From Flavobacteriaceae bacterium (GTDB lineage Bacteria; Bacteroidota; Bacteroidia; Flavobacteriales; Flavobacteriaceae): 64,000 nt of DNA. The DNA lies in NCBI GenBank assembly GCA_018401115.1, contig JAGYKX010000005.1:186001-250000 (forward strand), given 5' to 3'. The notes beneath the pieces were generated by a model, which was given only the letters and a program-made list of their open reading frames with translations, was not told the origin of the DNA and did not search any database. The position numbers and the translations under genes are program-made. This document shows positions 5,836-45,627 of the stretch, one piece after another (positions within the stretch are counted from its first letter, which is position 1; each line of letters starts with the position of its first letter).

Positions 5836-5919
5836 GGAGAGGTGCCAGAGTGGTAATGGAGCAGATTGCTAATCTGTCGACGGGTAACTGTCGCCAGGGT
5901 TCGAATCCCTGTCTCTCCG
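5836..5919 (+). tRNA. tRNA-Ser (anticodon GCT)
   Basis: The acceptor stem GGAGAGG pairs with TCTCTCC (one G-U). The anticodon loop ttGCTaa is at 5866-5872, the long variable arm is typical of serine tRNA, and the T arm GGTTCGAATCC is intact. The discriminator is G; CCA is not encoded. Confidence 0.95.
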
Positions 5920-5956
5920 CTCTTTATTGAAAAATTGATACCTTATTACAAGGTCT

Positions 5957-6031
5957 CGGGGTGTAGCGTAGCCCGGTTATCGCGCCGCGTTTGGGACGCG
6001 GAGGTCGCAGGTTCGAATCCTGCCACCCCGA
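5957..6031 (+). tRNA. tRNA-Pro (anticodon TGG)
   Basis: The acceptor stem CGGGGTG pairs with CACCCCG. The anticodon loop ttTGGga gives anticodon TGG, and the T arm GGTTCGAATCC is intact. It is 37 bases after tRNA-Ser in the same transcript. Confidence 0.95.
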
Positions 6032-6084
6032 CATTAATAAACAGAGATATTCCCAAAATCTCAAAACTTTTTCCTTTGGGAAAT

Positions 6085-6158
6085 GGTCGCGTAGCTCAGC
6101 TGGATAGAGCATCTGCCTTCTAAGCAGACGGTCAAAGGTTCGAATCCTTTCGCGATCA
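6085..6158 (+). tRNA. tRNA-Arg (anticodon TCT)
   Basis: The acceptor stem GGTCGCG pairs with CGCGATC. The D arm TAGCTCAGCTGGATAGAGCA, anticodon loop ctTCTaa and T arm GGTTCGAATCC are all present. It is the last tRNA of the operon and borders the accessory region, so it is a candidate integration target. Confidence 0.95.
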
Positions 6159-6193
6159 CAAAATGAGAATCAATAAGAATCTCAATAAGAATA

Positions 6194-6913: not shown

Positions 6914-6930
6914 CTGTGATTTTTGTTACA
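6914..6930 (+). promoter_or_regulatory. Motif CTGTGATTTTTGTTAC upstream of the MFS gene
   Basis: The sequence GTGAT-TTTT-GTTAC is an imperfect 5-4-5 palindrome 76 bases before the MFS start codon. A near-identical motif (14 of 16 bases) lies upstream of the peroxiredoxin gene at 25086-25101. A weak -7 element TACTTTCG is at 6952-6959. It could be a regulator site or the -35 element of an ECF sigma promoter. Confidence 0.4.
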
Positions 6931-7005
6931 GAATAATTAAATAAGTAAAACTACTTTCGCAAAAAATATTTTTAAAAGCTTTATAAGCTAATTTCACTTA
7001 GTTAA

Positions 7006-8244
7006 ATGACAGACAACATAAAACTTGGATTAAAAGAAAATTGGAAGCAGTTTACTCTTTTAGTTGTCGTAAATGCTTTTGTAGGTGGAATGATAGGAAT
7101 GGAGCGCACTATTTTACCTCAATTTGCAGAATTACAATTTGGTGTGGCTTCGAAAACGGCTATACTATCTTTCATTATCGCATTTGGAACTTCAAAAGCA
7201 ATAGCTAATTTTTACACAGGAAGACTTTCCAACAAATTTGGACGAAGAAACTTACTTCTATTTGGTTGGATTCTCGCAATACCAATTCCTTTTATGCTTA
7301 TGTATGCCTCGAGTTGGACTTGGGTGATTATTGCTAATGTTTTATTAGGAATTAGTCAGGGTCTTACTTGGAGTAGTACTGTAGTAATGAAAATAGACCT
7401 TGTTGGAGAAAGAGACCGTGGTTTTGCAATGGGCTTAAATGAATTTGCAGGTTATTTTGCCGTGGGTGTAGTAGCATTTCTAACAGGTTCTATTGCCAAC
7501 AGTTATGGCATTACTCCTTATCCATTTTATATTGGAATTTTCATTTCTATCGTTGGTTTTTTATTGACATTTTTTTGGGTAAAAGATACTCGAGTTTTTG
7601 TTACTAAAGAGAGTACAACCGACAATACGACACAACTTAACAATGTGTTTATCGAAACAACATTTAAAAACAAAACCTTAAGTTCAGTAACGCAGGCAGG
7701 ACTTATTAATAATTTGAACGATGGAATGATATGGGGATTACTTCCAATAGTTCTTTTTTCGTTACATTTTGACAACAAAAATATTGGAATAATTACTGCT
7801 ATTTATCCAACGGTTTGGGGTATTGGACAACTTTTTACAGGGAAGATGTCTGACCATTATTCAAAAAAAGCAATGTTGTTTTGGGGTATGTTCTTACAAG
7901 GTTTTTCCATTTTACTGATACCATTTACTGATGACTTTTATCTTTTATCTTTCATTTCTGCAATTTTAGGTTTTGGAACAGCATTGGTGTATCCAACTTT
8001 CTTGTCTACTATAGCACAGACTACAAGTCCAAAGCAAAGAGCTGAAAGTATTGGGACTTTTAGACTTTGGAGAGATTTAGGGTATGCGTTTGGAGCAATT
8101 ATTTCAGGGGTGACAGCAGATGTATTCGGTATTCAATATGCTATCTTTCTAATTGGTGGACTAACTATAATATCATCACTTGTAATTAAATTCCGTATGC
8201 CTGAACAGATAAAAACAAATAAGGAAGTTAATAAGTGGGTATAA
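7006..8244 (+). CDS. MFS transporter
   Basis: A 412-residue protein with about 12 hydrophobic segments and the signature between helices 2 and 3 (GRLSNKFGRRNLLLFG), with a matching GKMSDHYSKKAMLFWG motif in the second half. This is a complete major facilitator permease, probably a drug, metabolite or sugar-type transporter; the substrate cannot be told. It stands alone in the accessory region, and a short repeat-like sequence follows its stop after 6 bases. Confidence 0.88.
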   Translation: MTDNIKLGLKENWKQFTLLVVVNAFVGGMIGMERTILPQFAELQFGVASKTAILSFIIAFGTSKAIANFYTGRLSNKFGRRNLLLFGWILAIPIPFMLMYASSWTWVIIANVLLGISQGLTWSSTVVMKIDLVGERDRGFAMGLNEFAGYFAVGVVAFLTGSIANSYGITPYPFYIGIFISIVGFLLTFFWVKDTRVFVTKESTTDNTTQLNNVFIETTFKNKTLSSVTQAGLINNLNDGMIWGLLPIVLFSLHFDNKNIGIITAIYPTVWGIGQLFTGKMSDHYSKKAMLFWGMFLQGFSILLIPFTDDFYLLSFISAILGFGTALVYPTFLSTIAQTTSPKQRAESIGTFRLWRDLGYAFGAIISGVTADVFGIQYAIFLIGGLTIISSLVIKFRMPEQIKTNKEVNKWV

Positions 8245-9809: not shown

Positions 9810-10253
9810 ATGAATATGTCAAATTATAGAAAAAAATTGTCAAATAAAGAACATGAATTATTTCTCAAGTTTCCAGCTTACATCTCTTTATTAGCCGCCA
9901 ATTTGGACGGCTTATTTGACGAGGTTGAGCAGTTTTCAGCAAATGAATTTGCCCATATGAAGACCTATTCATGCGATCTTAAGCTTGAGGATTTTTATAG
10001 GGAATTATGTCGTAATTTTGAAACAAGCTTGGATGAACTCAATAAATCACTACCTAAAGAAAAAGAGCTTAGGGCTAAGGCTATAGAGAAGGAACTTATA
10101 AATATTGAAAATATTATGCTCAAATTGGGTGATGAATATTCGAGTGTTATGCATGAGAGTATGAGATCTTTTAAAGACCATATTTCAAGGGCACACCATA
10201 ATGTACTGGTCGATTTCTTATTCCCAATCCCGATAAAAGGGTTAAATTATTAA
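9810..10253 (+). CDS. Uncharacterised helical protein of the stress module
   Basis: A 147-residue protein, charged and predicted largely alpha-helical, with no signal peptide or membrane segment. I do not recognise the family. Its position beside the universal stress genes suggests a stress-related role, but this is context only. ATG at 9810 or 9816 could start it; the A-rich leader before 9810 fits Bacteroidota initiation. Confidence 0.65.
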   Translation: MNMSNYRKKLSNKEHELFLKFPAYISLLAANLDGLFDEVEQFSANEFAHMKTYSCDLKLEDFYRELCRNFETSLDELNKSLPKEKELRAKAIEKELINIENIMLKLGDEYSSVMHESMRSFKDHISRAHHNVLVDFLFPIPIKGLNY

Positions 10254-10337
10254 TGGAGATTTATGTCCATAAATCGAACAAGAAGATTGTATTTATCTTT
10301 TTTCTATTTTGGGTTCCTTAAAATAATAATTAAATGA

Positions 10338-11180
10338 TTAATCTTGAAAATCTGGTATAACCATAAATGGAATTTTTATGTGAAAGCCTATTTTTTTAAT
10401 TACAGGTTCAATAAAAAGGCGTTCAACAAATGTGTGCTCATTTTTTATCATGACTAATAAGTCTATTTTATGTACTAATTGAAACTTATTAATGGCATCT
10501 GTGAGGTCTTGGTTAGGCAAATCATGAAATACATGGGGGGTATTTTTCAATACTTTGTCCAACCTACCCTTGTTTTCCATTTGTGTTTCAGAAAGCTTAT
10601 AAGCATTAGAAACATTTATCACATCAATTTTAGAGTTATGCTGCTTTAAAATTTTAAATAACACCTTAAAAGGTTCTTTTTTAAAACCCACCTCATAATC
10701 CGTTGGAAAAAGAATGGCTTTAGGTGATTCATATTCAAAATCAGGTGGTATTGCAATGACTGGGCATTTTGCATTTTTAAAAATATGTACTGTATGCGTG
10801 CCAAATAAAATTTCTTTGGCTCCAGAAGCCCCTTTGGTTCCCATGATAATGACGTCTATTTTACTTTCATGTACCGTTTCGTCTATTTGATCCGTAAGTG
10901 TGTTTAAACAGGCAAATGTTTCAAAAGAATGGTTTACAGAAGTACGTTCGCTTTCTAAACGATTTTGTAACTTATCTAAGTTACTTACAACATTCTCCCT
11001 CATAGAAGCGCCTAGTCCAATTCCGGGACTGCCAGCCACATACTCTGATTGATAAATTGGAGGCATATAGGTGTGTAATATATGAAATTTGCATTTACTG
11101 TCTTTAAATGTCAACAATGCATATTTAATGGCATTGAATGAGTTTTCCGAAAAATCTGTTGGAAGTAGTATACGTAACAT
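10338..11180 (-). CDS. Universal stress protein, tandem UspA domains
   Basis: A 280-residue protein with two UspA-like domains. The first starts MLRILLPTDFSENSFNAIKY and ends with the nucleotide-binding motif GTKGASGAKEILFGTHT, close to the ATP-binding G-2x-G-9x-G(S/T) pattern. The second (from about residue 150, AILFPTDYEVG) lacks a clear loop and is probably regulatory. Usp proteins help survival in energy or oxygen limitation; the biochemical role is unclear. It is downstream of a second tandem Usp gene with an 88-base gap and may share its promoter. Confidence 0.9.
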   Translation of the reverse strand: MLRILLPTDFSENSFNAIKYALLTFKDSKCKFHILHTYMPPIYQSEYVAGSPGIGLGASMRENVVSNLDKLQNRLESERTSVNHSFETFACLNTLTDQIDETVHESKIDVIIMGTKGASGAKEILFGTHTVHIFKNAKCPVIAIPPDFEYESPKAILFPTDYEVGFKKEPFKVLFKILKQHNSKIDVINVSNAYKLSETQMENKGRLDKVLKNTPHVFHDLPNQDLTDAINKFQLVHKIDLLVMIKNEHTFVERLFIEPVIKKIGFHIKIPFMVIPDFQD

Positions 11181-11268
11181 AATGAGTTAATTTGTAGTTT
11201 ATTTTACTTAACAACCTCGATGATTGCCAAAGAATTTAACACTGATAATCAAGTAGTTGTAAATTCCG

Positions 11269-12111
11269 TTAAAAGTTGACTTGATTAAAACTTAGCATAG
11301 GAATTTTGATTTTTGATTCCATTCTTTTACCTAAGTCTCGATGAAAAAGTTGATTGAAAAAGCTATGGTCTTTCCGTTCTAATAAGGCTATTATATCTGT
11401 ATTATTTAAATTGATATAATTTCGTAAACCATCATAGATACTTCGATTAGAAATAAGTTGAAATTCAATGTCATCGAATATTACTTGTTCTTTTAGCGAC
11501 TCTTTAAACTGAGTCATTTTTTCTACATGGTCATGTTCATTGTGATTGACAATATGTACAATTTTAATTTTAGCATCCAGTAGTTCGGCCATTTCAGAAA
11601 GTTTTGAAATAGCAATAACATCAACTTTTTCAAAATCGGTTGCATAAGCTATTGTTTTTATTTCTTTAAATTCTTGCATATTGGGTATTGTCAATAGTGT
11701 GCAATTCACTTTGACCATCAATGCTTTCACAATGCTTCCTGAAAAAACTTCTCGCTCTGTATGCGAATCTTTAATACCTACTATTAGTAAATAAGGAGGT
11801 ATTTTTTGAATTGCCATTAGAATTCCAGAACTAACAGATAAGTTTTCTATTACCTCAAATTTAATTTCTGTTTTTAACTCGTTTTGGATGAGGTTATTTT
11901 GAGCATATTTCTTAAGGACACCTAGTTTTTCGTCTTGTAATTGAGTCCTATAGTATTTATGCGGTCTTAAGGTTGAATGTTCAATTGGAGGGACACTAAA
12001 CACATGCAATAAAACAAGGTTTGCATTAAATTTTTCACACAAATTATAAGCATATTGTAGTATAGCAATATCATATTTTGAGCAATCTGTTGCGTAGAGA
12101 ATTGTTTTCAT
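11269..12111 (-). CDS. Universal stress protein, tandem UspA domains
   Basis: A 280-residue paralogue of the next gene. It begins MKTILYATDCSKYDIAILQY with the usual first strand and helix; the ATP-loop region reads VGIKDSHTEREVFSGSIVKA, a divergent form of the G-2x-G motif, so nucleotide binding is uncertain. The second domain starts near residue 148 (TIAYATDFEKVD). An Fnr-like palindrome lies 51 bases upstream of the start codon with a weak -7 element, so this gene is probably part of the module's regulon. Confidence 0.9.
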   Translation of the reverse strand: MKTILYATDCSKYDIAILQYAYNLCEKFNANLVLLHVFSVPPIEHSTLRPHKYYRTQLQDEKLGVLKKYAQNNLIQNELKTEIKFEVIENLSVSSGILMAIQKIPPYLLIVGIKDSHTEREVFSGSIVKALMVKVNCTLLTIPNMQEFKEIKTIAYATDFEKVDVIAISKLSEMAELLDAKIKIVHIVNHNEHDHVEKMTQFKESLKEQVIFDDIEFQLISNRSIYDGLRNYINLNNTDIIALLERKDHSFFNQLFHRDLGKRMESKIKIPMLSFNQVNF

Positions 12112-12161
12112 AAGGATGGATTTACTTATTGTGAAACTAAAGTTTATACTTCACCAATAGT

Positions 12162-12175
12162 ATGACTTGAGTCAT
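12162..12175 (-). promoter_or_regulatory. Fnr-like operator upstream of the Usp genes
   Basis: ATGAC-TTGA-GTCAT is a perfect 5-4-5 palindrome. On the minus strand the octamer TAGTTTCA (12132-12139) sits at the same distance as the -7 elements at the two other promoters of this motif; it keeps TA and two of the T but is imperfect. Read as a site for the Crp/Fnr-type regulator encoded at 17847-18905. Confidence 0.6.
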
Positions 12176-12241
12176 GAAATAAAATTATTATATTTCAATT
12201 AGCTTTAGGGCGCTAGTTGATCAGTACTTGATTTTGTAACA

Positions 12242-12420
12242 TTAAGACCTTTTTCGAAAAAGATGTTGGAATTTTTGAGAGATATTTAAAAGGTTGAAAA
12301 AAATTACTCTTTAAACTTTTTTAAGCACTATGACTTTCTAAACTTAGAGATTAATTATTTTTCGTTTTATATTTAGTAAATTAATTAAACTTGCTGCCTC
12401 AAATTTTGGGTTACCTACAA
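12242..12420 (-). repeat. 178-bp inverted repeat, copy 1
   Basis: The reverse complement matches 24744-24921 at roughly nine bases in ten, including an uninterrupted stretch of about 39 identical bases in the middle. It runs from TTGTAGGTAACCC (12420 backward) to AGGTCTTAA (12242). It has no coding potential. It occupies most of the 400-base gap between the Usp gene and the cardiolipin synthase-like gene. Confidence 0.8.
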
Positions 12421-12487
12421 TAATTACTGCCTTTAATGTGTTTTTTGGCAAGTTTTTCGTGATTTTTTAATTTTAAATTACTGACAG

Positions 12488-12501
12488 ATGATCTATGTCA
12501 T
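12488..12501. promoter_or_regulatory. Fnr-like palindrome without an evident promoter
   Basis: ATGAT-CTAT-GTCAT is another match to ATGAY-N4-RTCAT, ten bases beyond the stop of the cardiolipin synthase-like gene. No TAnnTTTG lies at the expected distance on either strand. The 178-bp repeat lies between it and the Usp genes, so it may be an orphaned or upstream accessory site. Confidence 0.5.
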
Positions 12502-12510
12502 AAAAGTTAA

Positions 12511-13947
12511 TTATAAAATAGGGCTAAAAACTTTGGCAAGTCCTTCTTTAAAACGTTGGGTCATTGGCCTTTTTAAATATGCTTGATAGTAAAGTTGTTT
12601 GCTTTTTTCACAGTCATTTAAAAAATCATTTTTTAGTTCTTTGGTAAGTGCACTTTCATAGACCAGAACGTTTACTTCATAGTTTTGCTCAAAGCTTCTA
12701 AGGTCTAAATTGGCAGTACCAATAGTTGTCAATTTATCGTCTGATAGCATTAGTTTGCTATGTAAAAATCCATTGGGATATAAATAAATCTTAACTCCAG
12801 CCTCTAAAAAATTTTGAAAATAGGCTCTAACACTCCATTTGGCTAAAAACCCATCGGAGTTTTCTGAAAGCATGAGTCTAACATCTACACCACTTAATGC
12901 CGCAACTTGTAATGCTTCCATTAGAGCCTCTCCTGGAATAATATAAGGATTGGCAATATACACGTATTTTTTAGCCTTATTAATCACAGAAAAATAAAGT
13001 TGACGTATTGCTGCAAAATCAGAGTCCGGACCGCTAGAGACAACTTGAGCAATAGAATTACCAGGTTTTGGGTAATTAAAGAAATACTTTTTTGTTAAAA
13101 TATCTTCACTACCGCTTGCAAAACTCCAATCCATCGCGAAAATTGCCTGTAGGCTATTCACTACTGGACCACTTAATTGAAGGTGTAAGTCATGCCATGT
13201 TCCTAGTACTATATCTCCTTTAAGATACTTATCAGATACATTGATTCCTCCTGTAAAAGCAGTTAAACCGTCTACAACAACAATTTTTCGATGGTTGCGA
13301 TAGTTAATCGATGAGAGGAACCTACCAAATCGTATGGGTAAAAAACCATAAACTTCTACCCCTGCATCTTTGAGAAGGTTAAGGTATTTATTACTCAACG
13401 TTTTACTTCCTAAATCATCATATAAAAAACGAACCTCTACACCTGCTTTAGTTTTTCGTTGTAATAAGGACAAAAACCGGTCTGCTAATTCTCCATCCTC
13501 AAAAATATAATATTGAATATGGATAAATTTTTCAGCATTTTCAATTGCCTTAAATATGGATTCAAAAGTTATTTGACCGTTTTTTAGTAGCGTTAGTTTA
13601 TTGCCTAAACTGGGCATGAACTTCGAGGTTTTTGCTATTAATTTAACTAGTTTAATATGATCCCTTATTGGCACAGGAATATTTTCAACACCATTATTTC
13701 CAAGTCTGTTATAGTATTTTTTAACTGTTTCTAAATACGCTGAAATCTCCTTGGATTCTTTTAAAACATAAAATTTATTTTTTCGTCTGTTGCGTCCAAG
13801 AATAAAATAAAATAGCATACCAGCTAAAGGAATTGTAAAAATGACTAAAAGCCATCCTAAGGTCTTAGTGGGTCTTACTCCAAAAAGGAGCAGTTTACGC
13901 ACTAATACTATAGCTAAAAGAAAATAAGCAATTATTGCTATTGTCAT
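12511..13947 (-). CDS. Cardiolipin synthase-like phospholipase D family protein
   Basis: A 478-residue membrane protein, the usual length of bacterial ClsA-type enzymes. Two N-terminal membrane helices (residues about 1-45) are followed by two HKD motifs: HRKIVVVDGLTAFTGG near residue 217 and HSKLMLSDDKLTTIGTANLD near residue 395. These enzymes join two phosphatidylglycerol molecules to cardiolipin at the inner membrane. It is divergent from the alcohol dehydrogenase operon, and the operator at 14120-14133 lies between them with a near-consensus -7 element facing this gene. Confidence 0.92.
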   Translation of the reverse strand: MTIAIIAYFLLAIVLVRKLLLFGVRPTKTLGWLLVIFTIPLAGMLFYFILGRNRRKNKFYVLKESKEISAYLETVKKYYNRLGNNGVENIPVPIRDHIKLVKLIAKTSKFMPSLGNKLTLLKNGQITFESIFKAIENAEKFIHIQYYIFEDGELADRFLSLLQRKTKAGVEVRFLYDDLGSKTLSNKYLNLLKDAGVEVYGFLPIRFGRFLSSINYRNHRKIVVVDGLTAFTGGINVSDKYLKGDIVLGTWHDLHLQLSGPVVNSLQAIFAMDWSFASGSEDILTKKYFFNYPKPGNSIAQVVSSGPDSDFAAIRQLYFSVINKAKKYVYIANPYIIPGEALMEALQVAALSGVDVRLMLSENSDGFLAKWSVRAYFQNFLEAGVKIYLYPNGFLHSKLMLSDDKLTTIGTANLDLRSFEQNYEVNVLVYESALTKELKNDFLNDCEKSKQLYYQAYLKRPMTQRFKEGLAKVFSPIL

Positions 13948-14089
13948 AATAAACAGATATTTATGGGTTTAGCTGGATTATTTATGCGAAAAAAAATTGT
14001 TATATCCATTCCTCTAAATAGCAAAAAATATATGCTTTCTAAAATTCAATTTTATATCCCATTGGCAATTCAAATATTTAAGTAAAATT

Positions 14090-14163
14090 CAAATATCTGT
14101 ATATGAAATATTTAGGGTCCTGACCTAGATCATGAACAAAGCTAATTACTAGCTATACCTTTG
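14090..14163. promoter_or_regulatory. Divergent promoters around one Fnr-like operator
   Basis: The operator CTGAC-CTAG-ATCAT (14120-14133) differs from ATGAY-N4-RTCAT at one base. Rightward, a perfect -7 element TACCTTTG (14156-14163) ends 36.5 bases from the operator centre. Leftward, GATATTTG on the minus strand (14090-14097), one mismatch from TAnnTTTG, ends at exactly the same distance. The operator would lie near -41.5 for both promoters, the class II activator position. It would drive the ADH operon to the right and the cardiolipin synthase-like gene to the left. The rest of the 320-base gap shows nothing else. Confidence 0.65.
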
Positions 14164-14268
14164 TTAAAAGCAAGAAGAGTAAATTATTCAGTATAGGTTT
14201 TTATGAATTGATTAGCATTTGGTAACTAATCTACTACCTACTAAATAGGAATCTTAAAAATTATAATT

Positions 14269-14412
14269 ATGGGAATAATTCAAGACAAAAGAAAATTTAA
14301 AATATCAAAGAAACAAACTAACCCAACTAATCCATCTGGTGGTGTAAATATTAAGAACAAGAAATTTAATATTGACAAAAAAACAATTGATGAAAATCAA
14401 AGCAATAAATAA
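14269..14412 (+). CDS. 47-residue basic small protein
   Basis: An ATG-initiated frame (MGIIQDKRKFKISKKQTNPT onward) ending in TAA seven bases before the ADH start. It is rich in Lys and Asn and contains two similar segments, KRKFKISKK and KNKKFNIDKK. It is the first gene after the activated promoter and has an A-rich leader typical of translated flavobacterial genes. No known family is recognised; it might be a small nucleic-acid-binding protein or just a leader peptide. Confidence 0.5.
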   Translation: MGIIQDKRKFKISKKQTNPTNPSGGVNIKNKKFNIDKKTIDENQSNK

Positions 14413-14419
14413 TAAAAAT

Positions 14420-15493
14420 ATGTCAAATTCAATTATTTCTACTAAAAATAAATCAACTATGAAAGGTCTTGTATATGGTGGTCCAGGTAAAATTAAATAC
14501 ATAGAAGTAAACATGCCTAAAATTACAAAATCAACAGATGCAATTGTTAAAATGGTTAAGACAACTATTTGCGGAACAGATTTGGGCATTTTGCATGGTA
14601 AAACACCTTCTGTAAAACCAGGAACTACACTTGGACATGAAGGTGTTGGTGTAATTGAAGAAGTTGGATCTGCTGTTACCAAGTTCAAAAAAGGCGATCG
14701 GGTAATTATTTCGTGTATCACTGCAGATGGAACTTGTGAATATTGCAAAAAACAGATGTATGGACATTGTAAGGATGGAGGTTGGATTTTAGGTAACTTA
14801 ATTAATGGAACGCAAGCAGAATATGTTCGTATTCCTCATGCAAATAATAGTCTTTATCATACACCAGAAGGTATTGAAGATGAGACTTTAGTTATGTTAA
14901 GCGACATCTTACCTACGGGTCATGAAATTGGTGTAATTAATGGTTGTGTTAAACCAGGGGATACTATCGCTATTGTTGGAGCGGGACCAATAGGTATGTC
15001 TGCCTTATTAACAGCACAATTTTATTCTCCAGCAAAAATTTACATGATTGATTTGGATGAAAATCGTTTGGATTTTGCAAAAAAATGGGGTGCCACTCAT
15101 ACTATTAATTCAGGTGAGAATGATGTTGTAAAAAAAATACTTTCTGAAACAATGGATGGTGTAGATGTGGCCATAGAAGCTGTCGGTATTCCTGAAACTT
15201 TTAATGTATGTCAACAAATTGTTCGTCCTGGTGGTCATGTGGCTAACATTGGTGTGCATGGTAAAAGTGTTGATCTTAAAATTCAAGATTTATGGATTAA
15301 AAACATCACCATAACTATGGGATTGGTAAATACAAATACAATACCAATGCTCTTGAAAACTGTGGTGTCTAAAAAAATTCAACCAGAAAAATTAATCACT
15401 CATCACTTTAAATTGAATGAAATTATGAAAGCTTATGAGGTTTTTGGAAATGCCGCAAAAGAAAAGGCTATGAAAGTAATATTGACAAATTAA
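14420..15493 (+). CDS. Zinc-dependent alcohol dehydrogenase family protein
   Basis: The start is at 14420 (MSNSIISTK) or 14459 (MKGLVYGGPG); the frame is open upstream to 14372 but overlaps the small gene there. Medium-chain dehydrogenase signatures: catalytic-zinc ligands in TTICGTDLGILHG and GHEGVGVIEEVG, and the NAD(P)-binding motif VGAGPIGMSALLTAQ. The structural-zinc loop reads TADGTCEYCKKQMYGHC: three of the four usual Cys remain and the first is Asp. It probably interconverts an alcohol and its aldehyde or ketone, perhaps for redox balance when oxygen is scarce. First enzyme of the operon reaching to 17830. Confidence 0.88.
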   Translation: MSNSIISTKNKSTMKGLVYGGPGKIKYIEVNMPKITKSTDAIVKMVKTTICGTDLGILHGKTPSVKPGTTLGHEGVGVIEEVGSAVTKFKKGDRVIISCITADGTCEYCKKQMYGHCKDGGWILGNLINGTQAEYVRIPHANNSLYHTPEGIEDETLVMLSDILPTGHEIGVINGCVKPGDTIAIVGAGPIGMSALLTAQFYSPAKIYMIDLDENRLDFAKKWGATHTINSGENDVVKKILSETMDGVDVAIEAVGIPETFNVCQQIVRPGGHVANIGVHGKSVDLKIQDLWIKNITITMGLVNTNTIPMLLKTVVSKKIQPEKLITHHFKLNEIMKAYEVFGNAAKEKAMKVILTN

Positions 15494-15577
15494 GTGAATC
15501 ATTAAATGTATGCAAAAACTAGACTTGCAGCAATACACCGTTTTTAAATAAAAGTATTTATTCTGAAAATAAAAAAT

Positions 15578-15892
15578 ATGATTATTCAATTTAATACAGA
15601 CAAAAATATTAGTGGAAACGAACAAAAAGTCGCTGCCTATTCAGCCCTAATAGAAGACGAACTAAGAAGGTATAGCTCTTACATAACTCGCCTTGAGATT
15701 CATCTTAGCGATGAGAACAGTAACAACAACGGACCCAACACTATGCGATGTATGATTGAAGCTAGAGTAGAGGGTCGACAACCCATAGCAGTTACAGATT
15801 TAGGAGACACTCATTATAAAGCTGTAACAGGCGCTCTTGACAAGTTAAGCGCTTCATTAGACACTATAATGGGGAAGTTGACTGATCATTAG
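15578..15892 (+). CDS. Short ribosome hibernation-promoting factor (HPF/RaiA-like)
   Basis: A 104-residue protein resembling the HPF/RaiA fold: IQFNTDKNISGN, LRRYSSYITRLEIHLSDEN, and a C-terminal helix (DLGDTHYKAVTGALDKLSASLDT). The family binds between the ribosomal subunits and inactivates ribosomes in stationary phase or energy limitation. It has the short form without the long-HPF dimerisation domain. It sits in the operon with ADH, a flavin reductase and ferritin, which fits a dormancy programme. Confidence 0.75.
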   Translation: MIIQFNTDKNISGNEQKVAAYSALIEDELRRYSSYITRLEIHLSDENSNNNGPNTMRCMIEARVEGRQPIAVTDLGDTHYKAVTGALDKLSASLDTIMGKLTDH

Positions 15893-15957
15893 CAAGAAAT
15901 AAAGATTCTATAAAAGCTTTAAAAATTATTTATAAAGGACTTAAAACCAATCAAATA

Positions 15958-16065
15958 ATGCATGAAATTAATTGGAATTCATCATTGAGATGGGGAATAT
16001 CTATTATTTCTATCCTTTTCATTGTAATTATGATCTATTCCATAAAAACTAAAGGTAGAAAATGA
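15958..16065 (+). CDS. 35-residue single-pass membrane protein
   Basis: The frame MHEINWNSSLRWGISIISIL onward has one hydrophobic helix (about residues 12-26) and a basic C-terminus (KTKGRK), giving an outside-in topology. Its TGA overlaps the ATG of the flavin reductase as ATGA, a classic translational-coupling arrangement, which strongly supports that it is translated. It could anchor or assist the reductase next to it; no family was recognised. Confidence 0.6.
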   Translation: MHEINWNSSLRWGISIISILFIVIMIYSIKTKGRK

Positions 16066-16733
16066 AACAGCATGTTGTAAAAATAGTATCCATAAAGAAG
16101 ATTACTCACGACGTATTAAAAATTATCACAAAGAAGCCTCAAAATTATATCTTCATACCCGGTCAAGCCACAGACATATCTATATATAAAAATGGATTGA
16201 AGGATAAAAAAAGACCTTATACTTTCTCTTGTCTGCCAATGGAAAATCATTTGGAGTTTATAATAAAAATATACCCTTTACACAAGGGGGTGACAAATGA
16301 ATTAAGACACTTAAAAGCAAACGACGAATTAATTTTGCACGAGGTGTTTGGTGCCATTAAATATAAGGGGGAAGGGACATTTATCGCAGGAGGAGCAGGG
16401 GTTACTCCTTTTATATCTATTTATAGACAGCTTGAATTTGACAACAAAATAGGAAATAATAAACTCATATTTGCGAATAAAACAATAAACGATATTATTC
16501 TTAAAGCGGAGTTTGAAAAAATATTAGGGAATAATTTCATCAATATTTTATCAGATGAAAATGAGGATGGTTACGCGAATGGTTATATCACAAAAGAATT
16601 TATTAAAGAAAATGGCAGTGGCATAAATAAATTTTTTTATCTCTGTGGGCCTCCGCCTATGATGGAAGCAGTCGAGAGTCAATTGGCTGATTTATGTGTA
16701 GATAAAAAATCTATTATCAAAGAAGCATTTTAA
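16062..16733 (+). CDS. FAD/NAD(P)H ferredoxin-reductase-like protein
   Basis: A 223-residue flavin reductase of the ferredoxin-NADP reductase superfamily. FAD site: KRPYTFSC (the RxYS/T motif). NAD(P)H site: GGAGVTPFIS and, at the end, CGPPPMMEAVE. There is no 2Fe-2S domain, so electrons must pass to a separate carrier. It starts with an ATGA overlap to the 35-residue membrane protein. Its partner is unknown; the operon with ferritin suggests that one task could be reductive iron release. Confidence 0.85.
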   Translation: MKQHVVKIVSIKKITHDVLKIITKKPQNYIFIPGQATDISIYKNGLKDKKRPYTFSCLPMENHLEFIIKIYPLHKGVTNELRHLKANDELILHEVFGAIKYKGEGTFIAGGAGVTPFISIYRQLEFDNKIGNNKLIFANKTINDIILKAEFEKILGNNFINILSDENEDGYANGYITKEFIKENGSGINKFFYLCGPPPMMEAVESQLADLCVDKKSIIKEAF

Positions 16734-16759
16734 ATTAATCCAATCTAAAAACAAATGAC

Positions 16760-17269
16760 ATGAATTCTAATAGACTTTCTAAAACCATTGAAACTGCTTT
16801 AAATACTCAAATGACAAAAGAAGCATATGCTTCACAAATATATTTGTCTTATGCTGCGTGGGCTTCAATGAATGGATATGCTGGTACAGCTAAATTTCTT
16901 TTTAAACATGCAAGAGAAGAACAAAATCACATGATGAAAATGCTAAAATATATTTTACAAAGGGGTGCTAAGGTAGTAGTAACGGTCATTCCTGCTCCAC
17001 CAGAACATCCTATTAGTATTAATAACTGCTTTGAAAAAGTATTTGAGCATGAAGTAGACAATACAAAATCAATATACCAAATATCCAAATTAAGTCACGA
17101 GCAGGAAGACTGGGCTACATGGAATTTTATGCAATGGTTTATACAAGAACAAGTGGAAGAAGAAACTTTTGCAATGGATTTATTGGATAAAATGAAAATA
17201 GCGGGTGGTGAACAAATGAGTAGAAATGCTTTGTATACATTTGACAGGGATATGGGTAAAATTGATTGA
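16760..17269 (+). CDS. Bacterial non-haem ferritin
   Basis: A 169-residue four-helix protein of FtnA type with the ferroxidase ligands in place: KEAYASQIYLSYA (Glu and Tyr of helix A), HAREEQNHMMKM (Glu and His of helix B) and EQVEEETFAMDLL in helix D. It stores iron as ferric mineral and limits Fenton chemistry. Gap of 26 bases to the flavin reductase, so surely co-transcribed. Confidence 0.93.
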   Translation: MNSNRLSKTIETALNTQMTKEAYASQIYLSYAAWASMNGYAGTAKFLFKHAREEQNHMMKMLKYILQRGAKVVVTVIPAPPEHPISINNCFEKVFEHEVDNTKSIYQISKLSHEQEDWATWNFMQWFIQEQVEEETFAMDLLDKMKIAGGEQMSRNALYTFDRDMGKID

Positions 17270-17395
17270 AAAACCTAATGTTATGTTTGGAAAAAGGTTA
17301 GACTCTATTATGTTCAATAATTTAAATTTAGGTAGTAGGCCTAATAACAACAATTTCAAATCGAATTGAGATTTTAATAAATAAAACTAAATATT

Positions 17396-17830
17396 ATGAA
17401 AACACGATTAACTTATTTTTCAGTAATTTTTCTTTTTTTATTTACAGCATGTGAAAAGAACACAGATTTACAAACTATGATGCAAAATTCAGAATCCAGA
17501 GGTCAAATGATGCAAAATATATTAGATGATAATGTAATGATGTCAGAATTTTTGAGTAAAATGAGGCTGAATCAAAGTGCATTATTAATGATTCAAAGTG
17601 ACCATGAAATTATGCAAATGATAATTAAGGGCAACGAGATGCATATGGCTAACAATAACCTATTGAATGACAGAGATATTATGAATGGAATGATGCAAAG
17701 CATTATTAAAGATGGAGAAATCATGAACCAAATGGTTCAAATGATGTATAAAGAAGGTTTTATAAGTGATGATTGTATGAATTATAATATTCAGATGATG
17801 AAAAATAAAGGTAATCTAGACATTAATTAA
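17396..17830 (+). CDS. Methionine-rich lipoprotein
   Basis: A 144-residue lipoprotein with signal peptide and lipobox LFTAC (Cys19). The mature part has about 23 Met in total for the protein (16 per cent), mostly as paired MM within helical repeats such as EIMQMI and MNGMMQSII. Met clusters bind Cu(I) in several periplasmic proteins; that role here is inference. It ends the stress operon and converges with the regulator gene, leaving 16 bases between stops. Confidence 0.7.
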   Translation: MKTRLTYFSVIFLFLFTACEKNTDLQTMMQNSESRGQMMQNILDDNVMMSEFLSKMRLNQSALLMIQSDHEIMQMIIKGNEMHMANNNLLNDRDIMNGMMQSIIKDGEIMNQMVQMMYKEGFISDDCMNYNIQMMKNKGNLDIN

Positions 17831-17846
17831 TACAAAAAATTAAGAC

Positions 17847-18905
17847 TTAACCAAATTGAGCTACTTTTCTAATTTTATTTGGATCTAGTAAAATCAGATT
17901 TCTATTACAATTTATTTGAATGAGATTTTCATGCTTAAATTCGGAGAGTATTCGAATAGCAGTTTCTGGAGCAGATCCTATCATTCCTGCAAAATCATCT
18001 CTTGAGATATGAATCTCTGCTTTTGATTTAGTACCTATTAAACCTTTGACACTAATATCTAATAATGCTTTAGCTGCTCTTTGTCTTACTGTATTGTAAG
18101 CCATATTTGTCAATAAATCCTTAGTTTCAATGAGGTTATAAGCCATAAATTCAATAAATTTAAGTGCCACAATTTTATTGCTATACAAGAGTTTTTTGAA
18201 ATCTGTTTTTGGAATACCGCAGGCCAATGTATTTAAATCGACAGAGGCAGTTTCTATATACATCCCTTTATTATTAAACAGTGATATTTGTCCAATAAAA
18301 TCTCCAGGACCATAAATACCCGTAACAAAAAGTTTTCCACTGGAACTGGTCTTATAAGTTTTTACTCTCCCGCTTTTGATAAAAAATAAGTTATTAGCCT
18401 TGTTCCCCTCCATATATAACTCATCATTTTTTTGATATAATTTTAACAAATACTTGTCGGTAAAACCTTCTATATCTAAAAATTCAGATGCATTTTTTAC
18501 AAAATTATTAATACTCTCTAATTTTTTTTTAAAAGAGTTAATTTTAATTAAACGAGCATTTATAGAATTTATCAAATCTTTTTTTAAGTAAGGGATAGAT
18601 AAATAATCATCAGCTCCCATGTTCATGCCATTTCTAATGTCTGAATGACTATTTTTTTCAGATAAAAAGATGAAGGGAATTTCATTTACTCTCTTATCAG
18701 AATTTAAAGCCTTCAAAACTTCAAAGTCATTTTCATTAGCTATTACGGAGTTTGACAAAATTATATCTGGTAATAACTCAATAGCTTTTGTTATTCCTGA
18801 TTTAAGATTATTAGCTATGAGAATATTGAAGTTTTCAAATTTCAAAAATTTCAAAGTAATGTCTATATTTTTTTTATTATCGTCAATTAATAGTATTGTC
18901 AACAT
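17847..18905 (-). CDS. Crp/Fnr-type regulator with degenerate receiver domain
   Basis: A 352-residue protein. Residues 1-120 fold like a CheY receiver: acidic pair Asp8/Asp9 and Ser82 are kept, but the phospho-acceptor position is Asn52 (PDIILSNSV) and the conserved Lys is Ile104 (ADDYLSIPY). Residues about 135-265 form a cyclic-nucleotide-like sensor domain (FFIKSGRVKTY, YGPGDFIGQISLF) without the cAMP Arg motif. The C-terminal winged helix (about 270-350) has recognition helix APETAIRILSEF; Glu314 and Arg318 match Glu209 and Arg213 of E. coli Fnr, which read the TGA core. No N-terminal Cys cluster is present, so no Fnr-type iron-sulfur sensor. It likely activates the module and itself through the ATGAY-N4-RTCAT sites. 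Confidence 0.88.
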   Translation of the reverse strand: MLTILLIDDNKKNIDITLKFLKFENFNILIANNLKSGITKAIELLPDIILSNSVIANENDFEVLKALNSDKRVNEIPFIFLSEKNSHSDIRNGMNMGADDYLSIPYLKKDLINSINARLIKINSFKKKLESINNFVKNASEFLDIEGFTDKYLLKLYQKNDELYMEGNKANNLFFIKSGRVKTYKTSSSGKLFVTGIYGPGDFIGQISLFNNKGMYIETASVDLNTLACGIPKTDFKKLLYSNKIVALKFIEFMAYNLIETKDLLTNMAYNTVRQRAAKALLDISVKGLIGTKSKAEIHISRDDFAGMIGSAPETAIRILSEFKHENLIQINCNRNLILLDPNKIRKVAQFG

Positions 18906-19007
18906 ATGTTTTAATATTTTAAATATTTAATTGATCGTTTTATTCTTGAATTTTATAATACAACAAATTATATCAGTATCATGTAACAAATTGGATTATT
19001 AATTAAA

Positions 19008-19081
19008 CAAAAGAACAACTCAAAAATTTCTTTTCGTATGATACAAGTCATACCAATAGTAATTTCATAATTATACTTTTG
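19008..19081. promoter_or_regulatory. Divergent promoters around an Fnr-like operator
   Basis: The operator ATGAT-ACAA-GTCAT is at 19038-19051. Rightward, a perfect -7 element TACTTTTG (19074-19081) ends 36.5 bases from its centre. Leftward, TTCTTTTG on the minus strand (19008-19015), one mismatch from consensus, ends at exactly the same distance and faces the regulator gene. This is the same geometry as at 14090-14163 and predicts positive autoregulation of the regulator. Confidence 0.65.
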
Positions 19082-19118: not shown

Positions 19119-19897
19119 ATGAAATCAAATAAATTTTTTATTGCCTTTTTTTTATTTTTTCAATATTTTTTTCAAAAGCACAAACAACCATTACTCTTTC
19201 TAAACAATGTAATTGTAATATCCTAAGCGGAGATGAATTTTATTCTGCTGGATCTTTATACCCTACAGGAGAGTTCATTGGTCAAATATATATTCAAACT
19301 GTTCAAAGCAGGTTGTACTTTTGGGGTGGTACTAGTTGGGAATCTATTTTAAGTTTATCAGATAACAATTCTAAATTCATCGATGATACCTTTGAAAATT
19401 CTGATTATAGTGTAACTTTTAATTATTCAGACGGAACTAGTTTTACAACAAGTGTCTTATTAGGTCCTCAGGGGCCTTCAGGTGATCAAGGGATTCAGGG
19501 AGTCCCAGGATTAGATGGAACCAATGGGCTTGCTGGCGCTGACGGTACTAATGGTATTGATGGAGCAACGGGTTTAACTAAAGATATTAGCGATAAAATA
19601 AAAATAAGATATAGTTTAATGATTAAAGCATTATCTGGCACACCTATTCAAACTAACATTGGCACTTCTTTTTTAATCGCAGATAAAGTAACTTTAGGAT
19701 TTTCCTATAGGCTAAAATCATACTTAGGCGGATTATTAGGCTATCAATTCTCAAATCCGTTTTTTGTAGGATTATCATATGACAAAACCACTACGAATTT
19801 AGGAGAAAATATTTTAGGCATTGGAAGCTTAGGCGTTGCTTTAAAATATACGTTTAATAAAAAAAATATGAAGAAAGTTCCTGCTTTTCTATTTTAA
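19119..19897 (+). pseudogene. Collagen-like/PorP-SprF chimera with a frameshifted signal peptide
   Basis: The ATG at 19119 begins a signal peptide (MKSNKFFIAFFLF) that continues naturally only after a one-base shift (SIFFSKAQ, then TTITLSKQCNC); the shift lies in the T-runs 19146-19172. The body carries collagen-like triplets (GPQGPSGDQGIQGVPGLDG) around 19466-19580. From about 19600 the frame resembles the C-terminal part of a PorP/SprF barrel (MIKALSGTPIQTNIGTSFLI, then SYDKTTTNLGE). The join suggests an internal deletion between a collagen-like protein and a type IX secretion-linked barrel. The first part is probably non-functional unless the run slips. Confidence 0.6.
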
Positions 19898-45243: not shown

Positions 45244-45627
45244 TTATTCAATGATGGCTATCATAGATATTTCTACGTTTACAAACATGGGTAAATTAGC
45301 GACCTCGATCGTTTCTCTTGCGGGGGCGGTTTCTGGAGAAAAGAACTGAGCATACACCCCGTTTATGGCTTTAAATTGGTGCATGTCTTTTACAAAGATA
45401 CTCGCCTTAACAACAGATTCAAAAGTGGCGCCAGCAGCTATTAGTATGGCTTCGAGGTTTTTCATCACCCGAAGGGTCTCTTCCTCAATACTGCCACTCA
45501 CTAAATTACCTGTGCTAGGATCAATAGGAGTTTGGCCAGAGATATACAGGGTATTGCCACTCAAGACTGCTTGGTTGTATGGGCCTATTGGAGCGGGTGC
45601 ATTGGGAGTAGTGATTATTTTTTTCAT
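45244..45627 (-). CDS. RidA family enamine/imine deaminase
   Basis: A 127-residue protein with the family motifs NAPAPIGPYNQAVLSG, LYISGQTPIDPSTG and the Arg-containing APARETIEVANLP near the C-terminus. RidA clears reactive 2-aminoacrylate and similar enamines. Confidence 0.93.
   Translation of the reverse strand: MKKIITTPNAPAPIGPYNQAVLSGNTLYISGQTPIDPSTGNLVSGSIEEETLRVMKNLEAILIAAGATFESVVKASIFVKDMHQFKAINGVYAQFFSPETAPARETIEVANLPMFVNVEISMIAIIE

Follow-up and report, generated by a model that had tools for sequence, protein, structure and literature searches.

Candidate operators of a receiver-Crp regulator without a phosphorylation site in a flavobacterial stress-gene cluster

As four similar palindromes lie among the stress-type genes of one flavobacterial locus, we wondered what they switch and which protein reads them. 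The locus is part of a 64,000-nucleotide stretch of a Flavobacteriaceae bacterium genome (contig JAGYKX010000005.1, positions 186,001 to 250,000), called the window here and numbered from its own first letter. It contains genes for two universal stress proteins (Usp), a phospholipase D-type protein (PLD), an alcohol dehydrogenase-type protein (ADH), an HPF-type ribosome hibernation protein, an oxidoreductase, a ferritin and a surface protein, together with a regulator gene (17847..18905, minus strand) whose product joins a receiver domain to Crp-type domains (receiver-Crp). The palindromes at 12162, 14120 and 19038 are, in our judgement, probably operators of this regulator, which would activate five promoters in class II fashion and would work without phosphorylation. 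As far as sequence can tell, the repeated palindrome very probably serves the genes of a small stress cluster as a common on-switch. A search of the open literature found, among the papers listed, no described regulon of receiver-Crp proteins, or of this motif, in flavobacteria, which is no proof of absence.

The palindrome is conserved in orthologous loci

An earlier note on this DNA had reported four intergenic sites for ATGAY-N4-RTCAT, and all four, at 12162, 12488, 14120 and 19038, were recovered when we counted the pattern in the window, with the reversed pattern or shuffled sequence as control. The sites at 12162, 12488 and 19038 are exact; 14120 (CTGACCTAGATCAT) carries the single mismatch, at an outer base that lies within the normal variation of sites in relatives. 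The window holds 4 exact matches against 0.29 expected, a number reached by 0 of 100 shuffles. With genes called by a longest open reading frame (ORF) heuristic rather than a trained gene finder, three of these fall in 7,004 intergenic bases and the remaining one, at 45251, falls in the 56,996 coding bases, in agreement with the claim that no further intergenic site exists in the window. When one mismatch was allowed, 13 matches were found against 7.9 expected and 7 shuffles reached 13; taken by itself, the relaxed pattern has no significance.

Orthologous promoters, proposed in the same note as a test, gave a much clearer signal. We compared 13 orthologous loci (28.4 kb of intergenic and 234.8 kb of coding DNA), namely 10 of the 27 other close orthologues (E ≤1.3e-74) and three named loci; L048 was omitted from these counts as it shares a contig with L131. 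The core TGAY-N4-RTCA occurred 101 times in intergenic DNA (3.56 per kb) and 24 times in coding DNA (0.10 per kb), against 1 and 9 for the reversed control. Its outer base was A in 70%, C in 27%, G in 1% and T in 2% of the sites, and CTAG was the commonest spacer (14/101). These preferences define a fuller site, MTGAYnTAnRTCAK, of which 14120 is a good member. The E. coli Fnr-type pattern TTGAY-N4-RTCAA was absent from intergenic DNA of the 13 loci, where TTGAT-N4-ATCAA was likewise not found.

The signal extends beyond the close relatives. In 76 other receiver-Crp loci, some of them near-identical records, the core was found 223 times in intergenic DNA against 12 in the control. The pattern MTGAYNTANRTCAK occurred 156 times (control 22) in ten clade genomes, with 36 of these sites inside ten 20-kb loci around the regulator, and 413 times (control 100) over the whole of 55 genomes with another receiver-Crp protein, presence of such proteins being judged here and below from best E-values. 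Four genomes (G011, G037, G056 and G222) carry two different receiver-Crp regulators about 21–25 kb apart on one contig; these paralogous circuits differ slightly in spacer preference (CTAG versus AT-rich).

Three palindromes sit at a predicted class II promoter position

Activators of the Crp/Fnr superfamily have an established class II position, -41.5 relative to the transcription start. When each site of the relatives was read in the direction of its neighbouring gene, the -7 box of flavobacteria, TAnnTTTG, began exactly at +29 from the palindrome centre in 32 of 123 sites, and no other offset was seen more than twice. Other receiver-Crp loci showed the same phasing (33/243, other offsets ≤2). 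As the -7 box of F. johnsoniae runs from T-12 to G-5 (PMC6847099), an offset of +29 places the palindrome centre at -41.5. The layout is that of class II promoters, an operator near -41.5 with a -7 box at fixed distance, with transcription starts being predicted positions.

We then counted the composite of palindrome and phased -7 box in 149 family genomes and obtained 1,147 sites against 21 in the reversed control. The ten genomes with a close orthologue of the regulator contributed 171 (control 3; mean 17.1 per genome) and the 55 with another receiver-Crp protein 581 (control 7; mean 10.6). The window's own genome holds 3 such sites against 0; with two mismatches the composite is noise there (51+55 versus 39+49 in the control).

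Within the window, phased -7 boxes with 4 to 6 of 6 matches accompany the sites at 12162, 14120 and 19038 (12162 rightwards has only 1), and 4 of the 8 site-directions reach 5 or 6 of 6 matches at the one preset offset (binomial P 6e-6). A matrix built from 113 oriented sites in relatives, the window excluded, was applied to the window and to 153 kb of own-genome loci chosen for motif, kinase or Crp matches. The five window promoters scored 26.3, 24.2, 20.5, 19.0 and 17.9, the next best position in the window 8.3, and the best among 12 random (Markov) 64-kb sequences 13.0.

Operator palindrome 1 (ATGACTCAAGTCAT, 12162..12175, minus strand) is centred at -41.5 of a predicted Usp promoter (score 20.5), whose -7 box TAGTTTCA (12132..12139, minus, 4 of 6) puts the predicted start at about 12127. 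Palindrome 2 (14120..14133), an exact composite match and one of the three in this genome, is common to two divergent predicted promoters: towards ADH (26.3) with -7 box TACCTTTG (14156..14163, plus, 6 of 6; predicted start about 14168), and towards PLD (17.9) with GATATTTG (14090..14097, minus, 5 of 6; about 14085). Palindrome 3 (ATGATACAAGTCAT, 19038..19051), also an exact composite match, is likewise common to two divergent predicted promoters. One points rightwards (24.2; -7 box TACTTTTG, 19074..19081, plus, 6 of 6), with a predicted start at about 19086, 33 nt 5' of ATG 19119, and the other towards the regulator itself (19.0; TTCTTTTG, 19008..19015, minus, 5 of 6; about 19003). Three of the four sites first listed therefore look like promoter operators and 12488 does not: the palindrome at 12488..12501 has 0 and 2 of 6 -7 box matches at +29 in its two directions and a composite score of 1.9, which rules it out in that role, and it may be an auxiliary or relict site.

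Overall, this suggests a model in which a regulator dimer would bind MTGAY-N4-RTCAK centred at -41.5 and activate class II promoters with the flavobacterial -7 box. Two of the operators would each serve two divergent promoters, so that three operators could control five promoters, and the regulator would activate its own promoter in positive autoregulation.

A Crp-type regulator as the probable reader of TGA sites with an altered outer base

The 352-amino-acid regulator consists of a pseudo-receiver (residues 1–118), a connector helix, a cyclic nucleotide monophosphate (cNMP)-binding fold and an HTH_Crp_2 domain with helix SAPETAIRILSEF. The Pfam matches, all above cut-offs, were Response_reg (8e-12), cNMP_binding (9e-17) and HTH_Crp_2 (2e-12), and the order of cNMP-binding fold and HTH_Crp places the protein in the Crp/Fnr superfamily. 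Its predicted structure (mean predicted local distance difference test score 78.1, predicted template modelling score 0.53) confirms the domain folds only; the 50 Protein Data Bank matches listed in a fold search were CAP/CRP-family proteins (template modelling score 0.69–0.89 by target length).

We infer that this is the protein that binds the operators, and that it would activate rather than repress. As had been noted from the sequence, its recognition helix keeps the Glu and Arg that read TGA, in the form E-T-A-I-R. This stretch is present in 15/15 clade rows (14 distinct), and 17 further close orthologues show one Ile-to-Val and two Ala changes in it. Its Ile stands at the position of Fnr Ser212 and is a plausible cause of the changed outer base.

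The earlier description of the sites as Fnr-like holds for the shared palindrome, the 5-4-5 layout, the TGA core and the differing outer base; it does not extend to the regulator as an Fnr orthologue. In Fnr proper, four cysteines hold the [4Fe-4S] cluster. The 352 residues here include only two cysteines, so this iron-sulphur set is absent, and Fnr orthology is further ruled out by the outer base (T in 2%) and by the order of receiver, cNMP and HTH_Crp_2 domains.

Close relatives of the regulator (39–48% identity) number 27 in 397 family genomes (E up to 1.3e-74), in addition to four named loci, and a wider family (32–39% identity) extends across Bacteroidota. In a tree of the cNMP-fold and HTH part, the window sequence and 13 other close ones form a clade with support 100/99. 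The tree comprised 98 distinct sequences from 100 rows (L048 and L131 are identical, as are L078 and L113; L048 is still counted among the 14 and 15 clade rows given in this text).

The phosphorylation site is lost and no partner kinase is found

The most unusual feature of the regulator, missed in the earlier note, is its degenerate receiver together with the missing partner kinase. Close relatives have a histidine kinase gene on the upstream side of the regulator in 30 of 30 distinct cases examined: immediately upstream in 14/14 other clade rows (13 distinct), and within the 1.5-kb flank in 19/19 further loci (17 close orthologues and two of the wider family). In the wider family, a kinase lies within two genes in 78/85 rows. 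One such upstream kinase has 957 residues with PAS, GAF, HisKA and HATPase_c domains, and the regulator of the relatives is the response regulator of a PAS/GAF kinase of this kind. No partner kinase was found within two genes of the window regulator. Searching the window's own genome (about 91% complete) with that kinase gave 9 weak matches of 25–32% identity, none full-length; eight of them overlap the kinase core and the ninth falls in a PAS part.

In the receiver itself, residue 52 is Asn and residue 104 is Ile; at these positions Asp and Lys are kept by all 116 distinct others (99/99 rows and 19/19 further). The active-site loop has changed from CDIMMP to SNSVIA. At positions with a conservation of 95% or more among the other 99 sequences, the window differs at 14/35 in the receiver, 0/5 in the cNMP fold and 1/13 in the HTH domain; the next worst family member has 4 changes in the receiver and 3 in the rest. 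Most of the receiver changes lie in the active-site loops, and the alternating strand-helix fold is still predicted, with low confidence at those loops. Without the phospho-acceptor Asp, the Lys and an adjacent kinase gene, the protein is not a canonical response regulator; with a Response_reg match and no phosphotransfer residues, it is a pseudo-receiver protein.

As no kinase was found and Asp and Lys are lost while the receiver fold is still predicted, the regulator most probably acts without Asp phosphorylation. A review of pseudo-receivers (PMC12632262) names several possible modes of control: constitutive activity, the amount of protein, and direct mechanisms, of which redox-controlled dimerisation is one. 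For the window protein, activity in the ground state with output set by its own amount appears most likely, and a ligand of the cNMP-fold domain possibly sets the output. Autoregulation of the regulator gene alone was not supported as a clade-wide trait; in relatives, the kinase gene heads a kinase–regulator pair, and 6/13 kinase genes have a site.

Weighing the regulator against other readers

Several results weigh against the regulator as the reader and controller of these sites. The genome-wide scan proposed in the earlier note returned 16 exact matches in the window's own genome against 12 in the reversed control, barely above it, and the outer-A/C version gave 31 against 20, no clear excess; the argument therefore has to be built on relatives and promoter anatomy. 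In whole genomes of the family, the excess of the bare motif was modest everywhere: 387 against 174 with a close orthologue, 1,832 against 963 with another receiver-Crp protein and 2,267 against 1,694 with none. In the 83 genomes without a receiver-Crp protein, MTGAYNTANRTCAK was found 430 times (control 212) and the composite site 392 times (control 11; mean 4.7). Only 14120 and 12488, the latter without a promoter, have the clade-type nTAn spacer in the window. A site directly upstream of the regulator gene was seen in 1/14 rows, the window's. Homologues of ADH, HPF, oxidoreductase and ferritin were not found in related loci (E 1e-8, 55% length), so their regulon membership rests on one promoter and gene order. 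Finally, the genome is an estimated 90.9% complete, and a distant kinase copy could be missing; the surroundings of the regulator gene lie unbroken within a 1.27-Mb contig, however, and the Asp has been lost regardless.

Composite sites in genomes without receiver-Crp proteins indicate that the architecture is wider than one regulator family and that other Crp/Fnr proteins can read it. The operators could accordingly be real and be read by such a protein, the decayed regulator being a bystander on its way out, an explanation that we consider unlikely. The window's genome does encode two HTH_Crp_2 proteins above cut-off besides the regulator, and the spacers of 12162 and 19038 are not of the clade type. 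However, both proteins read TSRVVISRLL, with Val in place of the TGA-reading Glu that only the window regulator (S-A-P-E-T-A-I-R) has among the three. All three operators are found no more than 7 kb from the regulator gene, one of them upstream of it, and its reading frame has no stop or frameshift despite the heavily changed receiver, with 1/18 conserved positions altered in the rest. In 11 other species of the genus (61–99% complete), no full-length copy of the regulator was found, which fits a joint arrival of regulator and sites.

It is less likely still that the receiver remains phosphorylated or signal-controlled in an ordinary two-component circuit, whether by a distant kinase or at a different residue, as would happen if Asn52 were deamidated to Asp. 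The genome does contain other kinases, and Asn is described in PMC4395418 as the second most common substitution in Asp-less receivers, one that deamidation can revert; yet the changes also extend to Lys104 and the entire active-site loop, and the search for a cognate kinase found none. The near-control exact count could point to palindromes that arose by chance in the AT-rich DNA between genes. Chance can hardly account for the conservation in relatives, the fixed -7 box spacing and matrix scores far above the null; such an origin is already unlikely for 12162, 14120 and 19038 and may apply to 12488.

Predicted targets are stress-type genes

Under control by the regulator, the preferred reading, the three palindromes are predicted to drive five promoters, those of Usp–Usp, PLD, ADH–HPF–oxidoreductase–ferritin, a surface-protein gene and the regulator. 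The signal would be a stress.

Usp genes show the best-conserved link to operator sites across related loci. The Usp operon begins with universal stress protein 1 (11269..12111, minus, 280 residues, Pfam Usp 9e-15), followed by universal stress protein 2 (10338..11180, minus, 280 residues, Usp 7e-22). Sites upstream of the operon were found for 48/58 homologues of Usp 1 and 103/124 of Usp 2, two overlapping sets, compared with 844/1,779 for all genes, a base rate that includes both L048 and L131. Other families with sites in the close clade are Hsp20 (10/11), patatin (8/11), YtxH-type (8/9) and BON-domain, peroxiredoxin and phosphate acetyltransferase (2/3 each).

PLD (12511..13947, minus, 478 residues) is cardiolipin synthase-like, with Pfam PLDc_2 (3e-45), PLDc and PLDc_N; 1/3 of its homologues in related loci has an upstream site. 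The ADH operon comprises a zinc alcohol dehydrogenase-type gene (14390..15493, plus; ADH_N and ADH_zinc_N; start ATG 14390 or TTG 14372), an HPF/S30AE-type gene (15578..15892, plus, 104 residues, Ribosomal_S30AE 1.6e-5), a FAD/NAD-binding oxidoreductase gene (16062..16733, plus, 223 residues, NAD_binding_1 9e-17) and a ferritin gene (16760..17269, plus, 169 residues, Ferritin 5e-35). By eye, a short Lys/Asn-rich ORF (14269-14412) lies in the long ADH leader and overlaps the ADH start.

The surface-protein gene (19119..19897, plus; domain names by eye) has a signal-peptide-like start at ATG 19119 and a collagen-like (GXY) ORF at 19313-19897. The two are in different frames, with the switch within a T-rich stretch, and this break would reflect an assembly error, decay or phase variation.

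The stress-type target set proposed in the earlier note is supported, and "self-contained" proved too strong a word for it: an equally good site (23.5; next 13.6 in the 153 kb scored) lies on contig 8, near 88621, before an ORF for a 43-residue membrane peptide (1355-1486 of locus L171). It is neighboured by a second Crp-type gene and by a gene that, by eye, is metallo-beta-lactamase/rhodanese-like. In the range covered by the note, the first gene (9810-10253) lacks a site, and neither a Pfam match nor a homologue in related loci was found for it.

Genomic setting and origin of the module

The module DNA (about 9–25 kb) has 27–33% GC, compared with 34–42% in most flanking 2-kb windows, with soft edges, and genes for tRNA-Ser, tRNA-Pro and tRNA-Arg lie at 5836-6159, near the edge of the low-GC region. 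As a full-length regulator was also not found in the 11 other species, the module may have been acquired as one block; loss elsewhere is the alternative. Separately, two 43-base matches, one identical and one with a single-base difference, have the same 1,015-base spacing in the window (6917-7974) and on contig C6 (about 111401-112458), which suggests that an MFS-like transporter gene (7006-8244) is duplicated on another contig.

A two-component system may here have become a one-component, self-activating switch, a history whose chances we regard as evenly balanced. The kinase would have been lost and the receiver turned into a pseudo-receiver; the recognition helix and divergent operators would have been kept, with partly new targets (ADH–HPF–ferritin). 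All of this is set in low-GC DNA close to a tRNA cluster, and the module was not found in the genomes of its sister species. Such a switch would perhaps be bistable, or would sense through the cNMP fold alone.

Comparison with known systems

HcpR of Porphyromonas is also a Crp/Fnr protein of this phylum and is not known to have a receiver. It is described as heme/NO-responsive, and its regulon is different.

The class II regulons of Fnr, Anr and FixK in Proteobacteria share with the window the 5-4-5 dyad, the TGAY core, the recognition-helix Glu and Arg, and targets of the oxygen-limitation or survival type. Their operators sit at -41.5. The window differs in its outer A/C in place of T, in the Ile at the Fnr Ser212 position, in a receiver in front, in having two cysteines and in the flavobacterial -7 box. 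A uspA gene adjoins anr2 in Burkholderia cenocepacia (PMC9104464).

Aspartate-less orphan regulators such as RitR and Hp1021 likewise have no phospho-Asp and no obvious partner kinase and keep a DNA-binding output (PMC12632262, PMC4395418); ChxR is a further example. In contrast to these, the window protein has a Crp-type output and a cNMP-fold domain, and the word Crp is absent from the main text of both papers.

Closest is the parent family, made up of those receiver-Crp response regulators in Bacteroidota that have a PAS/GAF kinase close by; its members share domain order, recognition helix, operators and Usp targets. Unlike the window protein, all 116 others keep Asp52 and Lys104, and a kinase is near in 30/30 close and 78/85 wider cases. 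As these Asp-bearing, kinase-paired relatives are known, the loss of Asp and kinase can be polarised. Operator, spacing and -7 box together define, at the level of sequence, a class of promoters found widely across the family, which makes the stress regulons of a large, poorly mapped group predictable. How non-phosphorylatable receivers are switched is posed as an open question in the pseudo-receiver review (PMC12632262). The window offers a clean natural case: relatives are known that share its operators, can be phosphorylated and are paired with a kinase, so that ancestor-like and derived forms can be compared directly.

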